Part shown: positions 10,973 to 22,448 of the stretch, piece by piece | Position numbering within the stretch: the first letter of the stretch is position 1 | Layout: every line of letters begins with the position of its first letter | NCBI GenBank assembly: GCA_017542055.1 | Contig: JAFXXW010000018.1 | Location: 1-33,378, forward strand | DNA from: Kiritimatiellia bacterium | GTDB lineage: Bacteria; Verrucomicrobiota; Kiritimatiellia; RFP12; UBA1067 | Direction of reading: 5' to 3' | Length of the DNA: 33,378 bases | The notes under the pieces: generated by a model | What the model was told of the DNA's origin: nothing | What the model saw: the letters and a program-made list of their open reading frames with translations, nothing else | The model's database searches: none | Program-made: the position numbers and the translations under genes

Positions 10973-11749
10973 ATGGAGATAGTCAAGATAGTCCCGCATG
11001 GTTTCTGCGCCGGGGTGATCGGGGCGCTGAAGAAGGCGCTCAGTCTCGAGGGTACGGTGTATTGCCTGCACGAACTCGTCCACAACGAAATCGTGGTGGC
11101 GGATCTGAAGGCGCGCGGATTTGTGTTCGTGGAGCGGGTGGAGGAAGTGCCGGAGGGATCTACCGTCCTTTTCTCGGCGCACGGGGTTTCGCCGGCGGTG
11201 CGGCAGGCGGCTCGGGCGCGCAACCTGAAGGTGGTGGACGCCACTTGTCCGTTTGTCCAGCGGGTGCACGACGAGGCCAGACGATATACCGAGCAAGGCA
11301 AGTTCGTGTATGTGATAGGCAAGCGCGACCACGTGGAAGTGCAGGGGATATTGGGCGAGATCAAGAATCGCCAGGAGCCGCTGCCGTACCGGATAGCGGT
11401 AGTGTCGCAGACCACGATGAATTCGGACGAGGTGGCGGCCCGGATCGAGGAATTGAGGCGGACGCACGAGGTGGAAACGTCGGCGCAGGTGTGCAACGCC
11501 ACCAAACTTCGCCAGGATGCGGTACGGAATTTCACGGGCGACGCCTTGCTGGTGCTGGGATCGGCCAACAGCTCCAACACCCGCGAACTGGGCGAGGTGG
11601 CGCGGTGCGCCAAGGTTTTTCGCGCGGGCACCATCGAAGAAGTGAAAGCGTTGGATTTGAGCGGAGTAAAAGTATTGGGCGTGACGTCGGGGGCGTCCAC
11701 GCCGGAAAGTTTCTACGAGGAGGCGATAAATGTTCTTGCTGATCGCTAG
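10973..11749 (+). CDS. ispH: 4-hydroxy-3-methylbut-2-enyl diphosphate reductase
   Basis: The last enzyme of the MEP isoprenoid pathway, reducing HMBPP to IPP and DMAPP with an iron-sulfur cluster. The three cluster cysteines are Cys12 (HGFCAGV), Cys92 (DATCPFV) and Cys174 (QVCNATK). Active-site residues His37, His70 and Glu122 (DHVEVQG) and TTMN (147-150) are present. At 258 residues it is about 50 shorter than the E. coli enzyme (about 316), and several motifs deviate: QVCNATKLRQ for the usual ICYATTNRQ, and GSANSSNT for GSKNSSNS. It starts with an AGAGAG ribosome site 6 bp after the kinase gene and overlaps the next gene by 20 bp. Confidence 0.9.
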   Translation: MEIVKIVPHGFCAGVIGALKKALSLEGTVYCLHELVHNEIVVADLKARGFVFVERVEEVPEGSTVLFSAHGVSPAVRQAARARNLKVVDATCPFVQRVHDEARRYTEQGKFVYVIGKRDHVEVQGILGEIKNRQEPLPYRIAVVSQTTMNSDEVAARIEELRRTHEVETSAQVCNATKLRQDAVRNFTGDALLVLGSANSSNTRELGEVARCAKVFRAGTIEEVKALDLSGVKVLGVTSGASTPESFYEEAINVLADR

Positions 11750-14881: not shown

Positions 14882-16623
14882 TCGAGGGAGAATTTGCGGT
14901 TGAGTTCGCGATTGGAGGTGAAAACCATGATCGGCTTGCCGGCCGGCGAAACGTAAGGCATGCGGCACGCGGCCAGTTCCTCCACCAGTTTCACCGCCAG
15001 TTTTTCGTCTAGTTTGGATGGCGCCATGGCGCAGGAACGGGCGATGGATTTGGCGATCAGCCCTAGACGCCATTTTTCGCCGTCGCGCTTGGCGGAACTG
15101 TTGCCCAGATCTTGCGCTATCGTCGCGAGGACGGCGGCGGAAGGCAACTGCCCGACGGACGCCGGGACGGCTTCGATTTTGAAAGTGTCGCGGCCGAACT
15201 CTTCCAGACTCCATCCCATATCCGAAAGTTCTTTCAGCGAGGCGCTGATGCGGGCGAACTCCGGCGGCGAGAAACGAACGGTTTCGGGGATGAGCAACGG
15301 CTGGGAAACGCGCTGTTCCGTGTCGGTCATCCGCTCGAAGATTATGCGTTCGCGCGCGGCTTTGGGATTGACGGTGACGATGCCGGAATCGGTTTCGATC
15401 AGAAGAAATCCCGATTCGGTCAGCGCGAGAAAGCGGAACCGGCGCCAGGGCGCGGTGTTGGGCGTGTCGGGCTCGAGCGGCAGTTCGATCTGGACCGGAG
15501 CTGCCGGAGGGGGCGCGGAAAATTCGAAGTTGTCCTGCTCCGGAGCGGTTGGCGCGGGAGCGTTGTCCGGCGCGGGCGACGGTCCGGCTGCCGGTGTTTC
15601 AGTCGTCGGCCGCGCGATGGCTTTGGGCGGCAGGAGCGCTCCGGCCACCGCATCGATCAGCGCATGCTTGACGACGGCGCTTTTACGGAATCGAACTTCG
15701 CGCTTGGCGGGGTGCACGTTCACGTCGACGTCCTTGGGGGAAACGTCGATAAAGATGATCGCGGCCGGTTTGGCGTCGCCTTGCCGGTGGGGATAGGCCT
15801 CGCGCAAGGCATAGGCGATGGAGGGCGAGGTGGCCGGACGGTTGTTGACGAAGATATATTGGTCGCGCCGGGTAGGCAGGTTGAGGTTGGGCTTTTCGAT
15901 GAAACCGTTGATTTTCACGCCGTCTTGCTCGAGCGAAAGGGGCCGGAGCGACTCGAGGAAATCGGCGGAGAAAATTTCCAATACGCGATCTTTGAGTTCG
16001 TCGCAGGGAGGAAGCCGGCATACTTCGCGGCCGTCGGCGACAAGCGTGAACCCGATTTGCGGATGCGCCAAGGCGTGCGTGGTGAAAACCTGGCGGACGT
16101 GACTTTCCTCGGTGGCGTAGGCGCGCAGGAATTTCTGTCTGGCCGGCACGTTGCAGAAAAGGTCGCGCACTTCGATGAGCGTACCGGGAGGCGCGCCGGC
16201 GGAGCGGATTTCCGCGATGGCGCCGGCATTGACTTGGATGAACGTTCCCTCGTCCTCGTCGTGCGGGCGGGTGGTGAGCGAAAACCGCGAAACGGACGCG
16301 ATGGACGGGATGGCCTCGCCGCGAAATCCGAGGGTGTCGATGTTTTCGATGTCTTCCACGTCCAGGATTTTGCTGGTGGCTTGGCGCTCCAGACAGAGGA
16401 GCGCGTCGTCCCGGTTCATGCCGCAACCGTCGTCCTGCACGGATATCAGTTTGCGTCCGCCCTGCATCACCGAAAGCCGTATGTGCCTTGCGCCGGCGTC
16501 GATGGCGTTTTCGATCAGCTCTTTGGCCACCGAGGAAGGGCGTTCCACCACTTCGCCGGCGGCAATTTTGTTGGCGACGTGGACGGGCAGCACCCGGATG
16601 TGGCCATCGCGTTTACAAATCAA
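14878..16623 (-). CDS. mutL: DNA mismatch repair protein MutL
   Basis: A 581-residue MutL. The GHKL ATPase domain shows IAAGEVVERP (20-29), KELIENAIDAGA with the catalytic glutamate, DDGCGM (64-69) and TLGFRGEAIPSI (97-108). DVDVNVHPAKREVRF (298-312) closes the N-terminal module. A Pro/Ala linker (about 333-376) precedes the C-terminal dimerisation domain. QIELP (378-382) resembles a beta-clamp-binding motif. The endonuclease motif DQHAAHER is replaced by NPKAARER (419-426). The start is chosen as TTG at 16623 because family members begin a few residues before I-x-x-L-P; it overlaps the ftsZ stop by 11 bp. ATT at 16620 is possible. Confidence 0.92.
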   Translation of the reverse strand: MICKRDGHIRVLPVHVANKIAAGEVVERPSSVAKELIENAIDAGARHIRLSVMQGGRKLISVQDDGCGMNRDDALLCLERQATSKILDVEDIENIDTLGFRGEAIPSIASVSRFSLTTRPHDEDEGTFIQVNAGAIAEIRSAGAPPGTLIEVRDLFCNVPARQKFLRAYATEESHVRQVFTTHALAHPQIGFTLVADGREVCRLPPCDELKDRVLEIFSADFLESLRPLSLEQDGVKINGFIEKPNLNLPTRRDQYIFVNNRPATSPSIAYALREAYPHRQGDAKPAAIIFIDVSPKDVDVNVHPAKREVRFRKSAVVKHALIDAVAGALLPPKAIARPTTETPAAGPSPAPDNAPAPTAPEQDNFEFSAPPPAAPVQIELPLEPDTPNTAPWRRFRFLALTESGFLLIETDSGIVTVNPKAARERIIFERMTDTEQRVSQPLLIPETVRFSPPEFARISASLKELSDMGWSLEEFGRDTFKIEAVPASVGQLPSAAVLATIAQDLGNSSAKRDGEKWRLGLIAKSIARSCAMAPSKLDEKLAVKLVEELAACRMPYVSPAGKPIMVFTSNRELNRKFSLE

Positions 16624-17689
16624 GGGAAATGCTCTTTCTGAGATAGGTGGGCTCGTCCATGTTTTCGCCGTGCCACAAAGTGCTTTCGCTGTTCTGGAAG
16701 CGTCCGCGCGATTTGGCGCCGGGCGACAGCACCGACTGGATCTTGCGCGCTTTGGTGGCGGACTCGTCGACCTTGGAGAACTCGAACAGCATGACCACCG
16801 CCGAAATCCGACCGGAGAAGGTGGCTTCGTCGTTGACGGTAGCGAGCTCGAATTGCGCGGTTTCGCCAAAGGCCTTGCGGATGCCGTTGGCCAGCGTGCT
16901 GATTTCCGTGAGCCGCAAATCGTCGCCGGCCAATACGCCGCAGAGGATGGCGCGGATGGTGGTGGTGCCGGACGACAGCGATTCGTTGGTCAAAAGCGCG
17001 TCCAGCGCCCGGGCGGCGCGGTCGGGACCGGAAGCTTCCACTGCGGCGAACCTGCCGCGTCCCGCCCGCGACAGCACGTGGCGCAGACGTTCGGCGTCGA
17101 GGCGGATGTAGCCGGGGGTTTTGAGCAACCGCCAGAACAGCGTGATGCCTTGCGCAAGGGTGGAAACCGCCTGGTCGAACGCCTGTTTCATGTTGTCCGA
17201 GGCCACCGTAAGCCGGTCGAGCGGCAGGAAGAAACTGGTGCTGGCGGCGTCTTCGATCATTCCCATCACGCTACGGGCCTTGCGCTGCCGGTCGTCGCCC
17301 TCGAACGCGAACGGCGTGGTGGCGAAGACGATGGACGGAATGTTGCGTTGCGACAGGCGCTTGAGGATTTCCAGCGTGGCGCCGCCGCCCGTGCCGCCGC
17401 CCAGCGAGGTGACGATCACGGCGATGCGGACGCCTTCCAGTTCCGGGTCGAGCGCGGCGATGGATTCTTCCACCGCCATCCGGGCCGCCACGATGTCGCC
17501 CCCGGAGCCGCGCCCCGAAAGCCGGTTGCCTCCGAGCAGCACGAAATCGCCGTCGAGCTGTCCGGTGGTGGCGTCGGTGTCGCACAGGAGATTGCGGATG
17601 GAACCGTCGAAATCGTCGGCGATGCGAGAGGCGATCCGGCAACCCGAAGTGCCTACGCCGATCATCAACATGGAGTTTGCAGCGTTCAC
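16613..17689 (-). CDS. ftsZ: Divergent cell division GTPase FtsZ
   Basis: A 358-residue tubulin-family GTPase, the scaffold of the division ring. It has the glycine loop GVGTSGCRIA (11-20) and the signature GGGTGGGA (97-104). A conserved C-terminal peptide DEPTYLRK resembles the FtsA/ZipA-binding tail of FtsZ (canonical DIPAFLRK). The T7 catalytic loop is altered: IRLDAER (195-201) aligns with the usual INLDFAD, so Asn and the second Asp are Arg. The GTG start at 17689 overlaps the ftsA stop (GTGA). Context ddl-ftsQ-ftsA supports FtsZ rather than another tubulin homologue. Activity may be slow or cooperative (inference). Confidence 0.88.
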   Translation of the reverse strand: MNAANSMLMIGVGTSGCRIASRIADDFDGSIRNLLCDTDATTGQLDGDFVLLGGNRLSGRGSGGDIVAARMAVEESIAALDPELEGVRIAVIVTSLGGGTGGGATLEILKRLSQRNIPSIVFATTPFAFEGDDRQRKARSVMGMIEDAASTSFFLPLDRLTVASDNMKQAFDQAVSTLAQGITLFWRLLKTPGYIRLDAERLRHVLSRAGRGRFAAVEASGPDRAARALDALLTNESLSSGTTTIRAILCGVLAGDDLRLTEISTLANGIRKAFGETAQFELATVNDEATFSGRISAVVMLFEFSKVDESATKARKIQSVLSPGAKSRGRFQNSESTLWHGENMDEPTYLRKSISLDL

Positions 17690-18888
17690 CGGAAGATACC
17701 TTTCAGAGTGTCGAAGAGCGAGCGTTCTTCGTAGTTTTTGTGGGCGTAGAGGAGGGCGCCGGCGATGGCGGCGAATTCGGCGGGGAACTCCTCCTGGTCC
17801 AATCCGTCGATATAGAGCGGCTTGCCGATCCGGACGGTCGTGCCGATTTCGCGTTGCAGCAGTAGATCGATTTCCTTCAGTTTGGCGCCGCCGCCGGTGA
17901 TGACGATGCCGGAGTGGAGCCGGTTGATGAGGTCTTGCTCTTCCAGCTTTTCCCGGATCATGGCGATTATCTCTTTCACGCGTGCGTTGGTGACGATGTT
18001 CACCGCGCGGCAGGGCACTGAGCGGGAATCCATGCCGGGCGTGGAGGGATCGATGGTGATCCGGTCGTCTTCGTCCAGACTCGAAACCACCGCCGAAGCA
18101 TGCTCGCGCTTGAGCATTTCCGCCCGCGCGTTCGACAGCTGGAAGGCCTGCGCCAAATCGTTGGTGATGTGGTCGCCGCCTACTCCGATGGCGCCGGTCG
18201 CCACCAGATAGCCGTCGGAATAGACGGCGTAACCGGTCGAGCCGCCGCCCAGATCCAGCACCAGGACGCCGTTTTTCTTTTCGTGGTCTTGCAACACCGC
18301 TTCGGCCGCGCACGTGCAGGCGAAGAGCGGATCGCGCAATTCGAGATGCGCGGCATCGGCGGCGGTACGGGCGTCCTCGATGCGGTTTTTGTCGGCCGAA
18401 ATGCTCAGCACGTTCAGTTTCAGCACATGGCCGGCGATATTCTTGGGGCTCAAGATTCCGCCGCGCTGGTCCACGCAGAAGTCCTGTTCGATGATGTCCA
18501 GGCCTACGCGTTCGCCGCCGCCGGGGGTGAGCTGATGGGCGTTGGCCACGACGTTTTCGATGTCTTCGTCGGAAACGGTCTTGTTGTTAACCGCAATGGT
18601 GCTGGAAAGCTGATCGGCGGACACGTGTTGCCCGTTGACCACCAGAAAGGCGTTGGCGATATCGATGGAACCGCCTTCCTTCTTGGCTTTGCGTTCGATT
18701 TCGCCGATTACTCCGCGAATGGATTGCTTGGCCTGTTCGATATCGGTGATTTGCGACTTTCTCACGCCCACCGAGGGGATTGATGCCAGCGAAGTGACGG
18801 TAAGTTTTTTGCCGGTTTCGCATTCGGCGACCGCCAGCACCGTGCGGGTGGTGCCCAGTTCCAATGCGGCGTAGATGTTGTAGCTCAT
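17686..18888 (-). CDS. ftsA: Cell division protein FtsA
   Basis: A 400-residue actin-like ATPase that anchors FtsZ to the membrane. Phosphate-1 motif ALELGTTRT (8-16), phosphate-2 LDLGGGSTGYAVY and the adenosine motif IVITGGGAKL are present. The SHS2-like 1C region lies between them (about 85-165). The C-terminus LFDTLKGIFR is the amphipathic membrane-targeting helix typical of FtsA. Its ATG at 18888 overlaps the ftsQ stop (ATGA), and its own stop overlaps ftsZ. The length is close to the usual 420. Operon position between ftsQ and ftsZ is the canonical dcw order. Confidence 0.95.
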   Translation of the reverse strand: MSYNIYAALELGTTRTVLAVAECETGKKLTVTSLASIPSVGVRKSQITDIEQAKQSIRGVIGEIERKAKKEGGSIDIANAFLVVNGQHVSADQLSSTIAVNNKTVSDEDIENVVANAHQLTPGGGERVGLDIIEQDFCVDQRGGILSPKNIAGHVLKLNVLSISADKNRIEDARTAADAAHLELRDPLFACTCAAEAVLQDHEKKNGVLVLDLGGGSTGYAVYSDGYLVATGAIGVGGDHITNDLAQAFQLSNARAEMLKREHASAVVSSLDEDDRITIDPSTPGMDSRSVPCRAVNIVTNARVKEIIAMIREKLEEQDLINRLHSGIVITGGGAKLKEIDLLLQREIGTTVRIGKPLYIDGLDQEEFPAEFAAIAGALLYAHKNYEERSLFDTLKGIFR

Positions 18889-19724
18889 TGTATGATTTCC
18901 TTGGTGTCGGCGTAGACGCGATCGGGTTCGGTGGCGTTCCAGACCGTTCCGTTGCCGGTCAGCCGGGCGTTGATGGCGTCGCGCAGATTGCGCATTACCT
19001 TAAGCATCTTGTCTTGGGTCCGGGGAGAGGGGTTGTCCATGCCTTCCCATGCCACTTTGGCCCGCTGATAGTTGCCGAGCGTGACCGTAAGGAAGTCGGG
19101 CTTGGCCACGTCGACCTGCTGGATGCCCAGTTCCTGGAACTCCACGTCCTGCGCCGCCTCCAACAACCGGAGCGCCGCCAGCGCATGGCCGGACAGCCTT
19201 TGTCCGATGGACGTGCCGGGAGCGGAAGCTTCGCGCACCATCGGCAACATGTCCACGCCGCGCCGGCACAGGAAAACCACGCCTTCGGTGTCGGCCACCT
19301 TGCCGCCCCATTGCTTGGAGTCGTGGATCCCCACCTTGACGATCGGTTCGCGTTCGGTGATGCGGATGACGACTTTGTCCGGCAACTGCTTGGCGACGGC
19401 GATCGACCGGATGGTGGCGTACGTGGCCAGCACTTCCTTGCGGCGCTCTTCGAAGTCGATCTCCCACAGATTGGCGCCTTTGCGGATGCCGAAAGCTTCG
19501 CGGATGGCGTCCGGATGAACCATCTTGCCGGTGGTGGTCACCTCCACCTGCAAGGAAGGATCGTGCACCTCGCACTGCTGGATCCAGATTTCGCGCAACT
19601 TGCCGTACGCCACCATCAGCCCGAGCGCGGCGGCGGCCAGCAACAGCAATCCCAAAGCGAACAGAATGCTTTTGACGTTGCGGGGTTTGTTGATCTTGTT
19701 CTTGGAATATTGTCGCTTACTCAT
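18885..19724 (-). CDS. ftsQ: Cell division protein FtsQ/DivIB
   Basis: A 279-residue bitopic membrane protein of the divisome. The basic N-terminus (MSKRQYSKNKINKPRN) is followed by one membrane helix (about 20-40, ALGLLLLAAAALGLMVAYG), then a POTRA domain (about 48-125, ending ITEREPIVKVG) and the beta domain typical of FtsQ. In model bacteria it recruits FtsB/FtsL. The ATG at 19724 lies in the last codons of ddl (8-bp overlap); an upstream in-frame ATG at 19769 would lie deep in ddl and is less likely. No Shine-Dalgarno site is seen, so coupling to ddl is likely. Confidence 0.85.
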   Translation of the reverse strand: MSKRQYSKNKINKPRNVKSILFALGLLLLAAAALGLMVAYGKLREIWIQQCEVHDPSLQVEVTTTGKMVHPDAIREAFGIRKGANLWEIDFEERRKEVLATYATIRSIAVAKQLPDKVVIRITEREPIVKVGIHDSKQWGGKVADTEGVVFLCRRGVDMLPMVREASAPGTSIGQRLSGHALAALRLLEAAQDVEFQELGIQQVDVAKPDFLTVTLGNYQRAKVAWEGMDNPSPRTQDKMLKVMRNLRDAINARLTGNGTVWNATEPDRVYADTKEIIQ

Positions 19725-20616
19725 GGTCGTAATCGGCTTTCTGGAGAATCTTTTCGCAGACTTCGGCAAAGGTGAGACCGGTTTGCATGCCGGCCTTGGG
19801 CACCAGCGAGTGCGAGGTGAAGCCGGGCGAGGTGTTGAGTTCCAACACGTAGCATTCGCCTGCCGGAGTAACCCGGAAGTCCACCCGGGTCACTCCCCGG
19901 CAACCGATGGCTTCGCAAGCGGCCAACGCGAGCTGCTGGAGTTTGGCGCAAAGGGTGGCATCTTCCAGGAAAGGATAGCGGGTTTCGTCGCTCAGATATT
20001 TCTCTTCGTAGCCGTACCATCCGTGTTTGGTGACGATTTCGATGACCGGCAACGTCTGGCCGCCGATCACCCCTACGGTGGTCTCGATACCGGGAATGAA
20101 CGACTCGACGAGAATGTCTTCGCCCGACTGCGCCGCCCGGGCCGATTCGAGCGCACGCGCCCATTCGGACGCTTGCGAGACTTTCGAGATTCCGACCGAA
20201 CTTCCGTCGGCCGGGGGCTTCACGACCACCGGCAGCGGCAGGGGACAAGTCTCGCAATCGGTCCGGACGACCGTCCAGGGAGCGGTGGGAATGCCGCGCG
20301 CGTCCAGCAGTTTTTTGGTGGCGATCTTGTCCATCGCGATCCGCGAAGCTTCTGCCCCGGGGCCGGTGTAGGGAATGCGCAATTTGTTCAATTCCGCCTG
20401 TATTCCGCCGGATTCTCCCCATCCTCCATGCAACGCGATATACACCTTGTCCGCTCCGGAAAGATCCACGCCTTCCAGTGAGTCCGATTTAAGGTCGACT
20501 CCGGTCACGTCGTACTTGCCGAGACTCTTCAGCGCCTCGACCACGTTCCGTCCGCTCGAGAGCGAAACTTCGCGCTCGTTCGAGCATCCTCCCATCAAAA
20601 CAAAAATTTTCTCCAT
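19717..20616 (-). CDS. ddl: D-alanine--D-alanine ligase
   Basis: A 299-residue ATP-grasp ligase joining two D-alanines for peptidoglycan precursors. Evident motifs are LMGGCSNEREVSLSSG (7-22), ALHGGWGESGGIQ, TGPGAEASRIAMDK, VVKPPADGSSVGI and VDFR...VLELNTSPGFTSHSL. Length is normal for the family (about 300). It heads the seven-gene minus-strand run (ddl, ftsQ, ftsA, ftsZ, mutL, flippase, phosphoesterase). Its ATG at 20616 lies only 9 bp beyond the -10 box, so its mRNA is predicted to be nearly leaderless. Divergent from murC-murB. Confidence 0.95.
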   Translation of the reverse strand: MEKIFVLMGGCSNEREVSLSSGRNVVEALKSLGKYDVTGVDLKSDSLEGVDLSGADKVYIALHGGWGESGGIQAELNKLRIPYTGPGAEASRIAMDKIATKKLLDARGIPTAPWTVVRTDCETCPLPLPVVVKPPADGSSVGISKVSQASEWARALESARAAQSGEDILVESFIPGIETTVGVIGGQTLPVIEIVTKHGWYGYEEKYLSDETRYPFLEDATLCAKLQQLALAACEAIGCRGVTRVDFRVTPAGECYVLELNTSPGFTSHSLVPKAGMQTGLTFAEVCEKILQKADYDHE

Positions 20617-20621
20617 AATGC

Positions 20622-20650
20622 TTATATTATATCATAAATTATGGTATAAT
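20622..20650 (+). promoter_or_regulatory. Promoter of the murC-murB fusion
   Basis: TATAAT at 20645-20650 with TG at 20642-20643 (TGGTATAAT). The -35 region, TTATAT at 20622-20627, is weak. The -10 ends 7 bp before the ATG at 20658, so the predicted start coincides with the start codon, i.e. a leaderless mRNA. It overlaps the divergent ddl promoter. Confidence 0.75.
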
Positions 20651-20654
20651 AGTA
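20626..20654 (-). promoter_or_regulatory. Divergent promoter of the ddl-ftsQ-ftsA-ftsZ operon
   Basis: On the minus strand TGATATAAT (20634-20626) forms an extended -10; a weak -35 (TACTAT, 20654-20649) lies 17 bp upstream. The 5' end is predicted near 20619, about 3 nt from the ATG at 20616. It shares almost all its bases with the murC-murB promoter, so the two may compete. Confidence 0.75.
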
Positions 20655-20657
20655 GAC

Positions 20658-22448
20658 ATGAAAGTGCATTTTTTGGGAATCGGCGGAGTGGGCATGGCGG
20701 GGCTGGCCGTGCTGATGCGCCATCGGGGACATTCGGTAAGCGGATGCGATATCGCACTTTCCCCGCGCACGGAGTGGCTGCAACGCAATGGAATAACGGT
20801 GTTTTGCGGCCATGATGCGGCGCACGTGGCGGATGCGGATCTGGTGGTGGCCACGCCGGCGGTAGATCGCGATTGCCCGGAATTTCGCGCGGCGAAACGC
20901 GTCGAGTTTCGCGGAGAGGTGCTGGCGCGGGAAATGGTCGCGGGGCCTTCGATCGCGGTGTGCGGCACTCACGGCAAGACCACCACCTCCACCTTCACCG
21001 CCAAGTTGTTGCGGGCTTTGGGGGCGGATCCGTCCTGGGTGATCGGCGGCGAGACGGGCGATTTCCCGGTGGCCGGAACCGGCAAAGGTCCGCTGGTGGT
21101 GGAGGCGGACGAATCGGACGGCACGCTCATGCGGTACCGTCCCGACATTCTGGTGGTGACCAATTGCGAATACGACCATCCCGACTTTTTCAAGACGCCG
21201 GCCGATTATTTCCGTTGTTTCGAGGTGGCCAAGGCCAACGCCAAGACGGTGATCGAGAGCGAGCTGCTGGAACTGGACGGGTGGGATATCCCCACCGACG
21301 CCTTGCACAACCGCAAGAACGCGCGCGCGGCCATCGAGGTGGCGCTGAAGCTGGGCTATTCGCGCGCGGCCATCGAACGCGTCTTGCCGGAAGTGGTGGG
21401 CGAATTGCCGGACCGGCGCTTCCAGCGGCTCGGCCCCGGCGTCTACACCGACTACGCCCACCATCCCACCGAAATGGCCAACGCCGTGGCGATGGCGCGA
21501 GGAGTCTGCCGGGGCGTGTTGCGCGTACTCTTCCAGCCGCATCGCTATTCGCGCACCCGGGCGCTGATCGACGATTTCCCCAAGGCGTTCGTCCAAGCCG
21601 ACGAAGTGGTGCTTTGCCCCACCTACGCGGCGTTCGAGCGTCCCGTCCCCGGAGGCGACATCGCGGACCTTTACAAAAAGTTGCGCGAAACTCCGCACGG
21701 GTACCGGCTGTATCTCGCGCGCAGTTGCGACGAGGCCTGGACCCACGCCCGTTTGAGCGCCCAGCCGGACGACCTTACGCTTGTGCTGGGGGCTGGCGAC
21801 ATCATCAAGGTGATAGGACACGATCCATTGCCGGTGCGGCGCATTCCGGTAGGCATGGGGTCCAATACCTGGCGGAGCGATCTGAAGACGAACGAGGAAT
21901 ATTTCCGCGTCGAGGGTCCGGCCGATCTCCCCGGCGCCAGTCTGCATATTCCCTGGATGGCCGGCATTCCCGGAACGATCGGCGGCTGGATCAAGATGAA
22001 CGCGGGCGCGCACGGACACAGCATCGGCGAATTGGTGGAGCGGGTGAAGGTGGATGGAACGTGGCTGAAACCGGAATTTTCCTATCGCCATAGCAACATT
22101 TCCGGCACGATCGAAGATTTCCGGCTCTTGCCCTACGTGCGCGACGAGGCGGCAGAGCGCGAGTTTCTCGAGAAGCGCAAGCGTTTTCCCGCCGGCACCA
22201 AAGGATCGGTGTTCAAGAATCCGCCCGGAGACTTCGCGGGGCGGCTACTGGAGGACGCCGGCGCCAAAACTTTGCGCGTGGGCGGAGCGTACGTGTGGCC
22301 GGAACATGCCAATGTGATCGTGGCGGGACCGGACGCGCTTCCGGGCGATTTCCTGGCGCTGGCCCGACTGATGCAACTGGCGGTGCTGTTCAAGTCCGGC
22401 GTCCGGCTGGAGCCGGAAGTCTGCGGGCTCGAGTTTCCTCTCCGGTAA
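20658..22448 (+). CDS. murCB: Condensed MurC-MurB fusion (UDP-MurNAc-L-alanine ligase and UDP-MurNAc dehydrogenase)
   Basis: A 596-residue fusion of two consecutive peptidoglycan enzymes. MurC (about 1-390) has LGIGGVGMAG (6-15), P-loop GTHGKTTTS (103-111), EADESDGT (149-156), YTDYAHHPTE (263-272) and LFQPHRYSRTR (291-301). It would ligate L-Ala to UDP-MurNAc. MurB (about 392-596) has GMGSNTW (399-405), GIPGTIGGW (436-444), SYRHSNI (475-481), KGSVFKNP (515-522, catalytic Ser) and LEPEV (584-588, catalytic Glu); it reduces enolpyruvyl-UDP-GlcNAc. Both halves are short: MurC lacks about 50 residues between DHPD and HN, and MurB is about 205 residues instead of about 300-340. No frame break is seen. 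Confidence 0.9.
   Translation: MKVHFLGIGGVGMAGLAVLMRHRGHSVSGCDIALSPRTEWLQRNGITVFCGHDAAHVADADLVVATPAVDRDCPEFRAAKRVEFRGEVLAREMVAGPSIAVCGTHGKTTTSTFTAKLLRALGADPSWVIGGETGDFPVAGTGKGPLVVEADESDGTLMRYRPDILVVTNCEYDHPDFFKTPADYFRCFEVAKANAKTVIESELLELDGWDIPTDALHNRKNARAAIEVALKLGYSRAAIERVLPEVVGELPDRRFQRLGPGVYTDYAHHPTEMANAVAMARGVCRGVLRVLFQPHRYSRTRALIDDFPKAFVQADEVVLCPTYAAFERPVPGGDIADLYKKLRETPHGYRLYLARSCDEAWTHARLSAQPDDLTLVLGAGDIIKVIGHDPLPVRRIPVGMGSNTWRSDLKTNEEYFRVEGPADLPGASLHIPWMAGIPGTIGGWIKMNAGAHGHSIGELVERVKVDGTWLKPEFSYRHSNISGTIEDFRLLPYVRDEAAEREFLEKRKRFPAGTKGSVFKNPPGDFAGRLLEDAGAKTLRVGGAYVWPEHANVIVAGPDALPGDFLALARLMQLAVLFKSGVRLEPEVCGLEFPLR

Follow-up and report, generated by a model that had tools for sequence, protein, structure and literature searches.

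Fusion of MurC to MurB in one polypeptide has been characterised in Verrucomicrobium spinosum, whose 770-residue protein complements both murB and murC mutants of E. coli. In vitro, MurC activity could be demonstrated for it but MurB activity could not; the MurC domain functions without the MurB domain, and the MurB domain by itself failed to complement (PMC4803751). The fusion gene is essential in V. spinosum (PMC12283558). Also pertinent are the type IIa MurBs (S. aureus 1HSK and similar), of some 300 residues, the three-domain MurC ligases of H. influenzae (1P31) and E. coli (2F00), and, for what a Mur-type ligase can dispense with, MurT of the MurT/GatD complex, which has no N-terminal domain (PMC6113224).

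The stretch of DNA analysed here, 33,378 nucleotides from a Kiritimatiellia bacterium and referred to below as the window, carries on its forward strand a 596-residue frame (20658..22448, +; ATG start, no internal stop) that frame and domain searches identify as a MurC-MurB fusion. Its Pfam domains come in the order Mur_ligase (residues 2-82), Mur_ligase_M (101-187), Mur_ligase_C (253-380) and MurB_C (502-588), as expected from the initial annotation's reading of a single uninterrupted frame with MurC motifs ahead of MurB motifs. Like the V. spinosum protein, with which it is homologous by domain order and sequence, it is one polypeptide with MurC N-terminal and MurB C-terminal, and shared ancestry makes it a fusion of that type. 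The fusion itself is therefore not new: it is an established Verrucomicrobiota-type enzyme, with forms of 740-790 residues in the same Kiritimatiellia order. What is new is its shortening, and that of the accompanying set of Mur ligases. Whereas the V. spinosum fusion retains a complete Mur_ligase_M, FAD_binding_4 and a linker of about 100 residues, the window protein has lost some 47 MurC residues and most of the linker, along with the start of MurB domain I and a portion of domain II. In the open-access literature searched, no account was found of a MurB shortened in this way, or of any genus in which every Mur ligase is trimmed; on condensed Mur enzymes or Kiritimatiellota fusions, the only papers to come up were those on V. 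spinosum. Probably this is a genuine bifunctional enzyme with a trimmed scaffold, descended from a full-length fusion.

The MurC half (residues 1-390; 20658..21827, +; TIGR01082 310 bits) shares with 1P31 and 2F00 the three-domain ligase fold and the signature motifs, namely the P-loop CGTHGKTTT in invariant alignment columns (residues 102-110; 20961..20987, +), DHPD (173-176; 21174..21185, +), DYAHHPTE (265-272; 21450..21473, +) and FQPHRYSRT (292-300; 21531..21557, +), and it keeps 60 of 76 MurC-conserved columns, most of the others being substituted likewise in sister families. It differs from them in a central-domain subregion beginning at DHPD. Alignment places the absence of E. coli MurC residues of about 238-284 (approximately 47 residues) at or near residues 199-217 (21252..21308, +), and a 13-residue loop (332-344) is missing as well. 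The segment from DHPD to the HN motif is 43 residues as against 88-98 in sister families, and Mur_ligase_M is matched over positions 1-105 of 200, compared with 1-200 in those families. Both halves miss the NCBIfam equivalog cut-offs (MurC 310 vs 335.1 bits; MurB 80 vs 144.5), with the MurC shortfall to be expected from the central-domain deletion. Automated annotation is at risk, with both halves falling under the NCBI MurC and MurB cut-offs.

The MurB half (residues 391-596; 21828..22445, +, delimited by VIA-align to MurB 9dtk and E. coli 1uxy) has about 206 residues. It is a MurB by MurB_C (PF02873, 69 bits, cut-off 27) and shares with the type IIa enzymes a Ser proton donor and the active-site residues, both being devoid of the Tyr loop and the beta-alpha-beta-beta fold; in comparison with their roughly 300 residues, the N-terminal 38-60 or so are absent. 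The structural alignment begins at E. coli MurB residue 38, leaving no equivalent of residues 1-37, and two shorter stretches are also gone, one of about 16 residues following the GSN loop and one of about 10 preceding the IPG loop, such that GSN and IPGT are 35 residues apart rather than the 60-65 of sister families. FAD_binding_4 (PF01565) is present only in part (positions 92-126 of 139; 15.4 bits, cut-off 26.4). In these respects the initial annotation was close to the measured values: it had put the loss from the MurC central domain at about 50 residues and the MurB half at about 205, and had noted that the early FAD-binding segment and part of the GSN-IPGT stretch were lacking. The catalytic motifs it had listed (P-loop, DYAHHPTE, SYRHSN, KGSVFKNP and LEPEV) are all found in the fusion.

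Against such losses, the retention of MurB active-site features is extensive. Among positions conserved across diverse MurBs and lying outside the deletions, the equivalents of E. coli G47, N51, P111, G112, G115, G116, N121, G123, Y158, R159, R214, G228, F231, N233 and E325 are kept in 29 of 29 members of the genus, and G49 in 27. In the window protein these include the GMGSN FAD loop (residues 399-403, with E. coli G47, G49 and N51; 21852..21866, +), the GIPGTIGGWIKMNAGA FAD/active-site loop (436-451 by alignment; 21963..22010, +), Y476-R477 (E. coli Y158-R159; 22083..22088, +), KGSVFKNP with Ser517 corresponding to the proton donor Ser229 (22200..22223, +), and Glu587 (E. coli Glu325; 22416..22418, +). 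The equivalents of Ser229, Glu325 and Arg159 are accordingly present together with the IPG-NAGA loop. Domain I of P. aeruginosa MurB contributes its GXG loop and C-terminal strand to the FAD pocket, which is completed by loops of domain II (PMC3689657), and both of the domain I elements are present in the condensed MurB. The missing parts, as judged from the alignments, are mostly outer scaffold, and because the domain I parts lining the pocket survive, FAD would probably bind, perhaps less tightly. The initial annotation had offered a MurB that binds FAD differently as an option, which this retention renders unnecessary. A related possibility, that the half is an active reductase holding FMN or weakly bound FAD, with the adenosine-side scaffold partly gone, draws on two losses, that of the beta-alpha-beta start of domain I and that of a portion of domain II, as well as on the sub-threshold FAD_binding_4 score; it is nevertheless unlikely given the preserved GXG loop and C-terminal strand, the P111-G123 loop, Y158, R159 and R214.

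Structure prediction gives a confident fold for both halves. An AlphaFold2 run on the full-length fusion with a checked 61-row alignment gave a mean pLDDT of 93.8 and a pTM of 0.92 (the predictions contain no FAD), and the model suggests that the relative placement of the two halves is well defined. By VIA-align, residues 1-390 match MurC 1p31_A (Z 32.1, rmsd 3.1, 387 aligned) and residues 391-596 of the same model match MurB 9dtk (Z 17.3). The MurB half folded alone (pLDDT 91.8, pTM 0.83) aligns over 195-206 residues to 13 MurB structures at Z 18.4-20.2, with 9dtk at Z 20.2 (206 aligned) and E. coli 1uxy at Z 19.6, where the match starts at residue 38; no other family exceeds Z 7.0, which places the half within the MurB fold. 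Matches to VAO-type flavoproteins (Z about 6-7) were set aside as reflecting the shared FAD fold only. From sequence and model we infer both activities, and FAD as cofactor, for the window fusion. Residues 1-390 would add L-alanine to UDP-MurNAc with ATP, and residues 391-596, as a Ser-type (type IIa-like) MurB, would reduce UDP-GlcNAc-enolpyruvate with NADPH via bound FAD. The two halves might also channel substrate, as the initial annotation had suggested.

Fifty-eight relatives, largely uncultured draft genomes, were searched for the same gaps, a survey that the initial annotation had called for. The named ones are Kiritimatiellia MAGs, one of them from horse faeces, and the host bacterium is uncultured and probably gut-dwelling. 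Every one of the 29 complete frames from the genus is condensed (583-666 residues from the first conserved strand), whereas 18 frames representing five further families in the order have 736-792 residues with the segments intact and match full Mur_ligase_M and FAD_binding_4. The DHPD-to-HN distance is 29-51 residues across the genus, apart from one member with 69, vs 88-98 in sister families; from the end of MurC to GSN there are 16-57 vs 51-95, and from GSN to IPG 35-51 vs 60-65. Three congeners (L009, L019 and L020) have a MurC half that is without the HN-motif region also, with 29-33 residues after DHPD. In a tree that also contains fusions from Prosthecobacter and Spartobacteria, the condensed forms group as a single clade (support 100/100), the first branch of which, L056, is an intermediate with MurB domain I already cut and a MurC segment of 75 residues. 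The opening strand of domain I (SFFRTGG) is kept in nine members of the genus and lost in twenty, a split that is weakly supported. The probable course is that the known full-length Verrucomicrobiota/Kiritimatiellota fusion lost scaffold stepwise. MurC would have shed the antiparallel-beta part of its central domain, and MurB the first beta-alpha-beta of FAD domain I together with a helical segment from domain II.

Three usable pairs gave dN/dS values of 0.07-0.14 for the MurC half and 0.115-0.165 for the MurB half, the latter range holding in two close pairs (in the most distant pair, G000-G017, synonymous change is nearly saturated and the value only indicative). Both halves, on these sequence comparisons, are under purifying selection. 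This bears on whether the MurB half could be decaying into a pseudo-enzyme, with another enzyme reducing UDP-GlcNAc-enolpyruvate, which the large FAD-domain loss and the score below the equivalog cut-off might be taken to indicate; such decay is very improbable with dN/dS at these values, with 29 species conserving the catalytic Ser/Glu/Arg region and with no further MurB_C protein encoded in the genome to which the window belongs (G000). That genome (1.35 Mb, 31 contigs, 88.7% complete) has one MurB_C protein, the fusion, the profile search revealing no second MurB in the part assembled and no protein above the PF01565 cut-off. Across the genus one MurB_C copy is the rule, with two in G008 and none in four incomplete genomes. 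The proposal of a minimised bifunctional enzyme, made initially from the window alone, is supported by genus-wide conservation, purifying selection, intact catalytic residues and a confidently predicted fold.

A second full-length murB or murC was to have told against that proposal. There is no second MurB, but a MurC-like paralogue does exist (G000:C25), for which the top NCBIfam model is murC at 264 bits (cut-off 335). It is short, has a GTCGKST P-loop, is without FQPHRYSRT and has YAHNP instead of YAHHP; it is a caveat for MurC and not for MurB. That it supplies the UDP-MurNAc:L-Ala ligase activity, with the fusion's MurC half having another role, is suggested by its best model and yet is highly improbable, considering that it co-occurs with full-length fusions in sister families, that its motifs deviate and that the fusion itself keeps those of MurC. 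L054 639-2117 (+) encodes a MurC-like ligase with a GTCGKST P-loop and YAHNP/RPHGY motifs that accompanies the fusion throughout the order, and is possibly a recycling or modified-stem ligase.

The trimming is not confined to the fusion. All PF08245 proteins found in G000 are matched only over positions 1-105 to 1-115 of 200. Counted from the catalytic His motif to the HN-type motif, MurF has 56-68 residues in the genus vs 89-95 in sisters (the G000 gene is L137 967-2001, -), MurE 75-87 (one 99) vs 87-109, and the MurC-like paralogue 40 vs 58; MurD, sampled in only five congeners and one sister (congener loci L270-L275), has 50-52 vs 89, with 85 in E. coli. By sequence, then, the central-domain loss falls in the same segment in all four ligases of the genus, MurC, MurD, MurE and MurF, the MurD and MurE statements resting on congeners of G000. 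In G000 itself no murD, murE or murG was detected, though murA, murB-C, murF, mraY and two PBPs are present, which may be due to assembly incompleteness, with true loss as the alternative. The shortening of the fusion is part of a genus-wide shortening of MurC, D, E, F and MurB that spares MurA, MurG and Ddl. Trimming of MurA and MurG was considered and rejected, with MurA matched over 1-416 of 416 and MurG over 5-352 of 353 in genus members, and Ddl is of normal length (ratio 0.993). Chance or an assembly artefact is ruled out as the source of the gaps by their recurrence in 29 species. A general shrinkage of proteins in a small genome, or assembly error, to which a 1.35 Mb genome in 31 contigs lends some colour, has negligible likelihood as the cause of the shortness: the same deletions are found in those 29 species, some with genomes of 2-4 Mb, and the median orthologue span ratio to sisters is 0.996 (43 pairs, G052) and 0.985 (31 pairs, G047). 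The sampled proteome is not shortened overall, and the fusion is the most shortened orthologue in both sets (0.763 and 0.780), with MurF third and second.

An extreme is reached with MurE. In 11 of 12 species of the genus, 10-72 residues precede the P-loop GKT, an upper limit as measured from stop-to-stop frames, in contrast to 118 in E. coli and at least 93 in sisters (the minimum from complete frames); a UDP-binding domain of about 90 residues therefore cannot fit in those 11 proteins, which begin almost at the P-loop. The MurE loci of the genus are L237 841-1962 (G033), L232, L236, L239 and L262-L269. The signature (DNPR, GKGHE) is kept despite the missing N-terminal domain, and one MurE starting at the P-loop domain scores 370.6 bits with TIGR01085 (cut-off 257.3). 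Provision of the domain as a separate protein was considered, and no extra PF01225 match was found in the genus genomes searched. MurT, too, is a protein of Mur-ligase fold that lacks the UDP-binding N-terminal domain, but it amidates lipid II with GatD, whereas the short protein of the genus is a true MurE by that score and its DNPR. The N-terminal domains of MurF and MurD are also cut. Since MurE is without the UDP-binding domain and those of MurD and MurF are cut down, it can tentatively be proposed, more as a possibility than an expectation, that the cytoplasmic Mur pathway of the genus has been rebuilt around minimal ligases, with UDP-MurNAc-peptide either recognised mainly by its peptide end or passed within a stable complex including MurC-MurB. 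If MurE works without its UDP domain, textbook Mur-ligase substrate recognition is not universal, and inhibitors directed against the UDP pocket would miss the MurE of this genus. From a practical perspective, the genus offers a natural example of the extent to which MurB and the Mur ligases can be reduced without losing what catalysis needs, and small targets for structure work.

The fusion and the ddl-ftsQ-ftsA-ftsZ genes are arranged head-to-head in the window (20616-20658), in L003 and in the closest relatives, and in L056, L057 and L059 the order is murCB-ddl-ftsQ-ftsA-ftsZ, all on one strand. The window genes are the full-length ddl, divergent from the fusion (19717..20616, -), ftsQ (18885..19769, -), ftsA (17686..18888, -) and ftsZ (16616..17680, -). 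This FtsZ is very divergent (97.1 bits with TIGR00065, below the cut-off of 295), and its signature is GGGTGGGA in place of GGGTGTGA. Elsewhere in the window, an IspH/LytB-like protein (10973-11749, +) is rather short at 258 residues, with a span ratio of 0.902 to a sister family.
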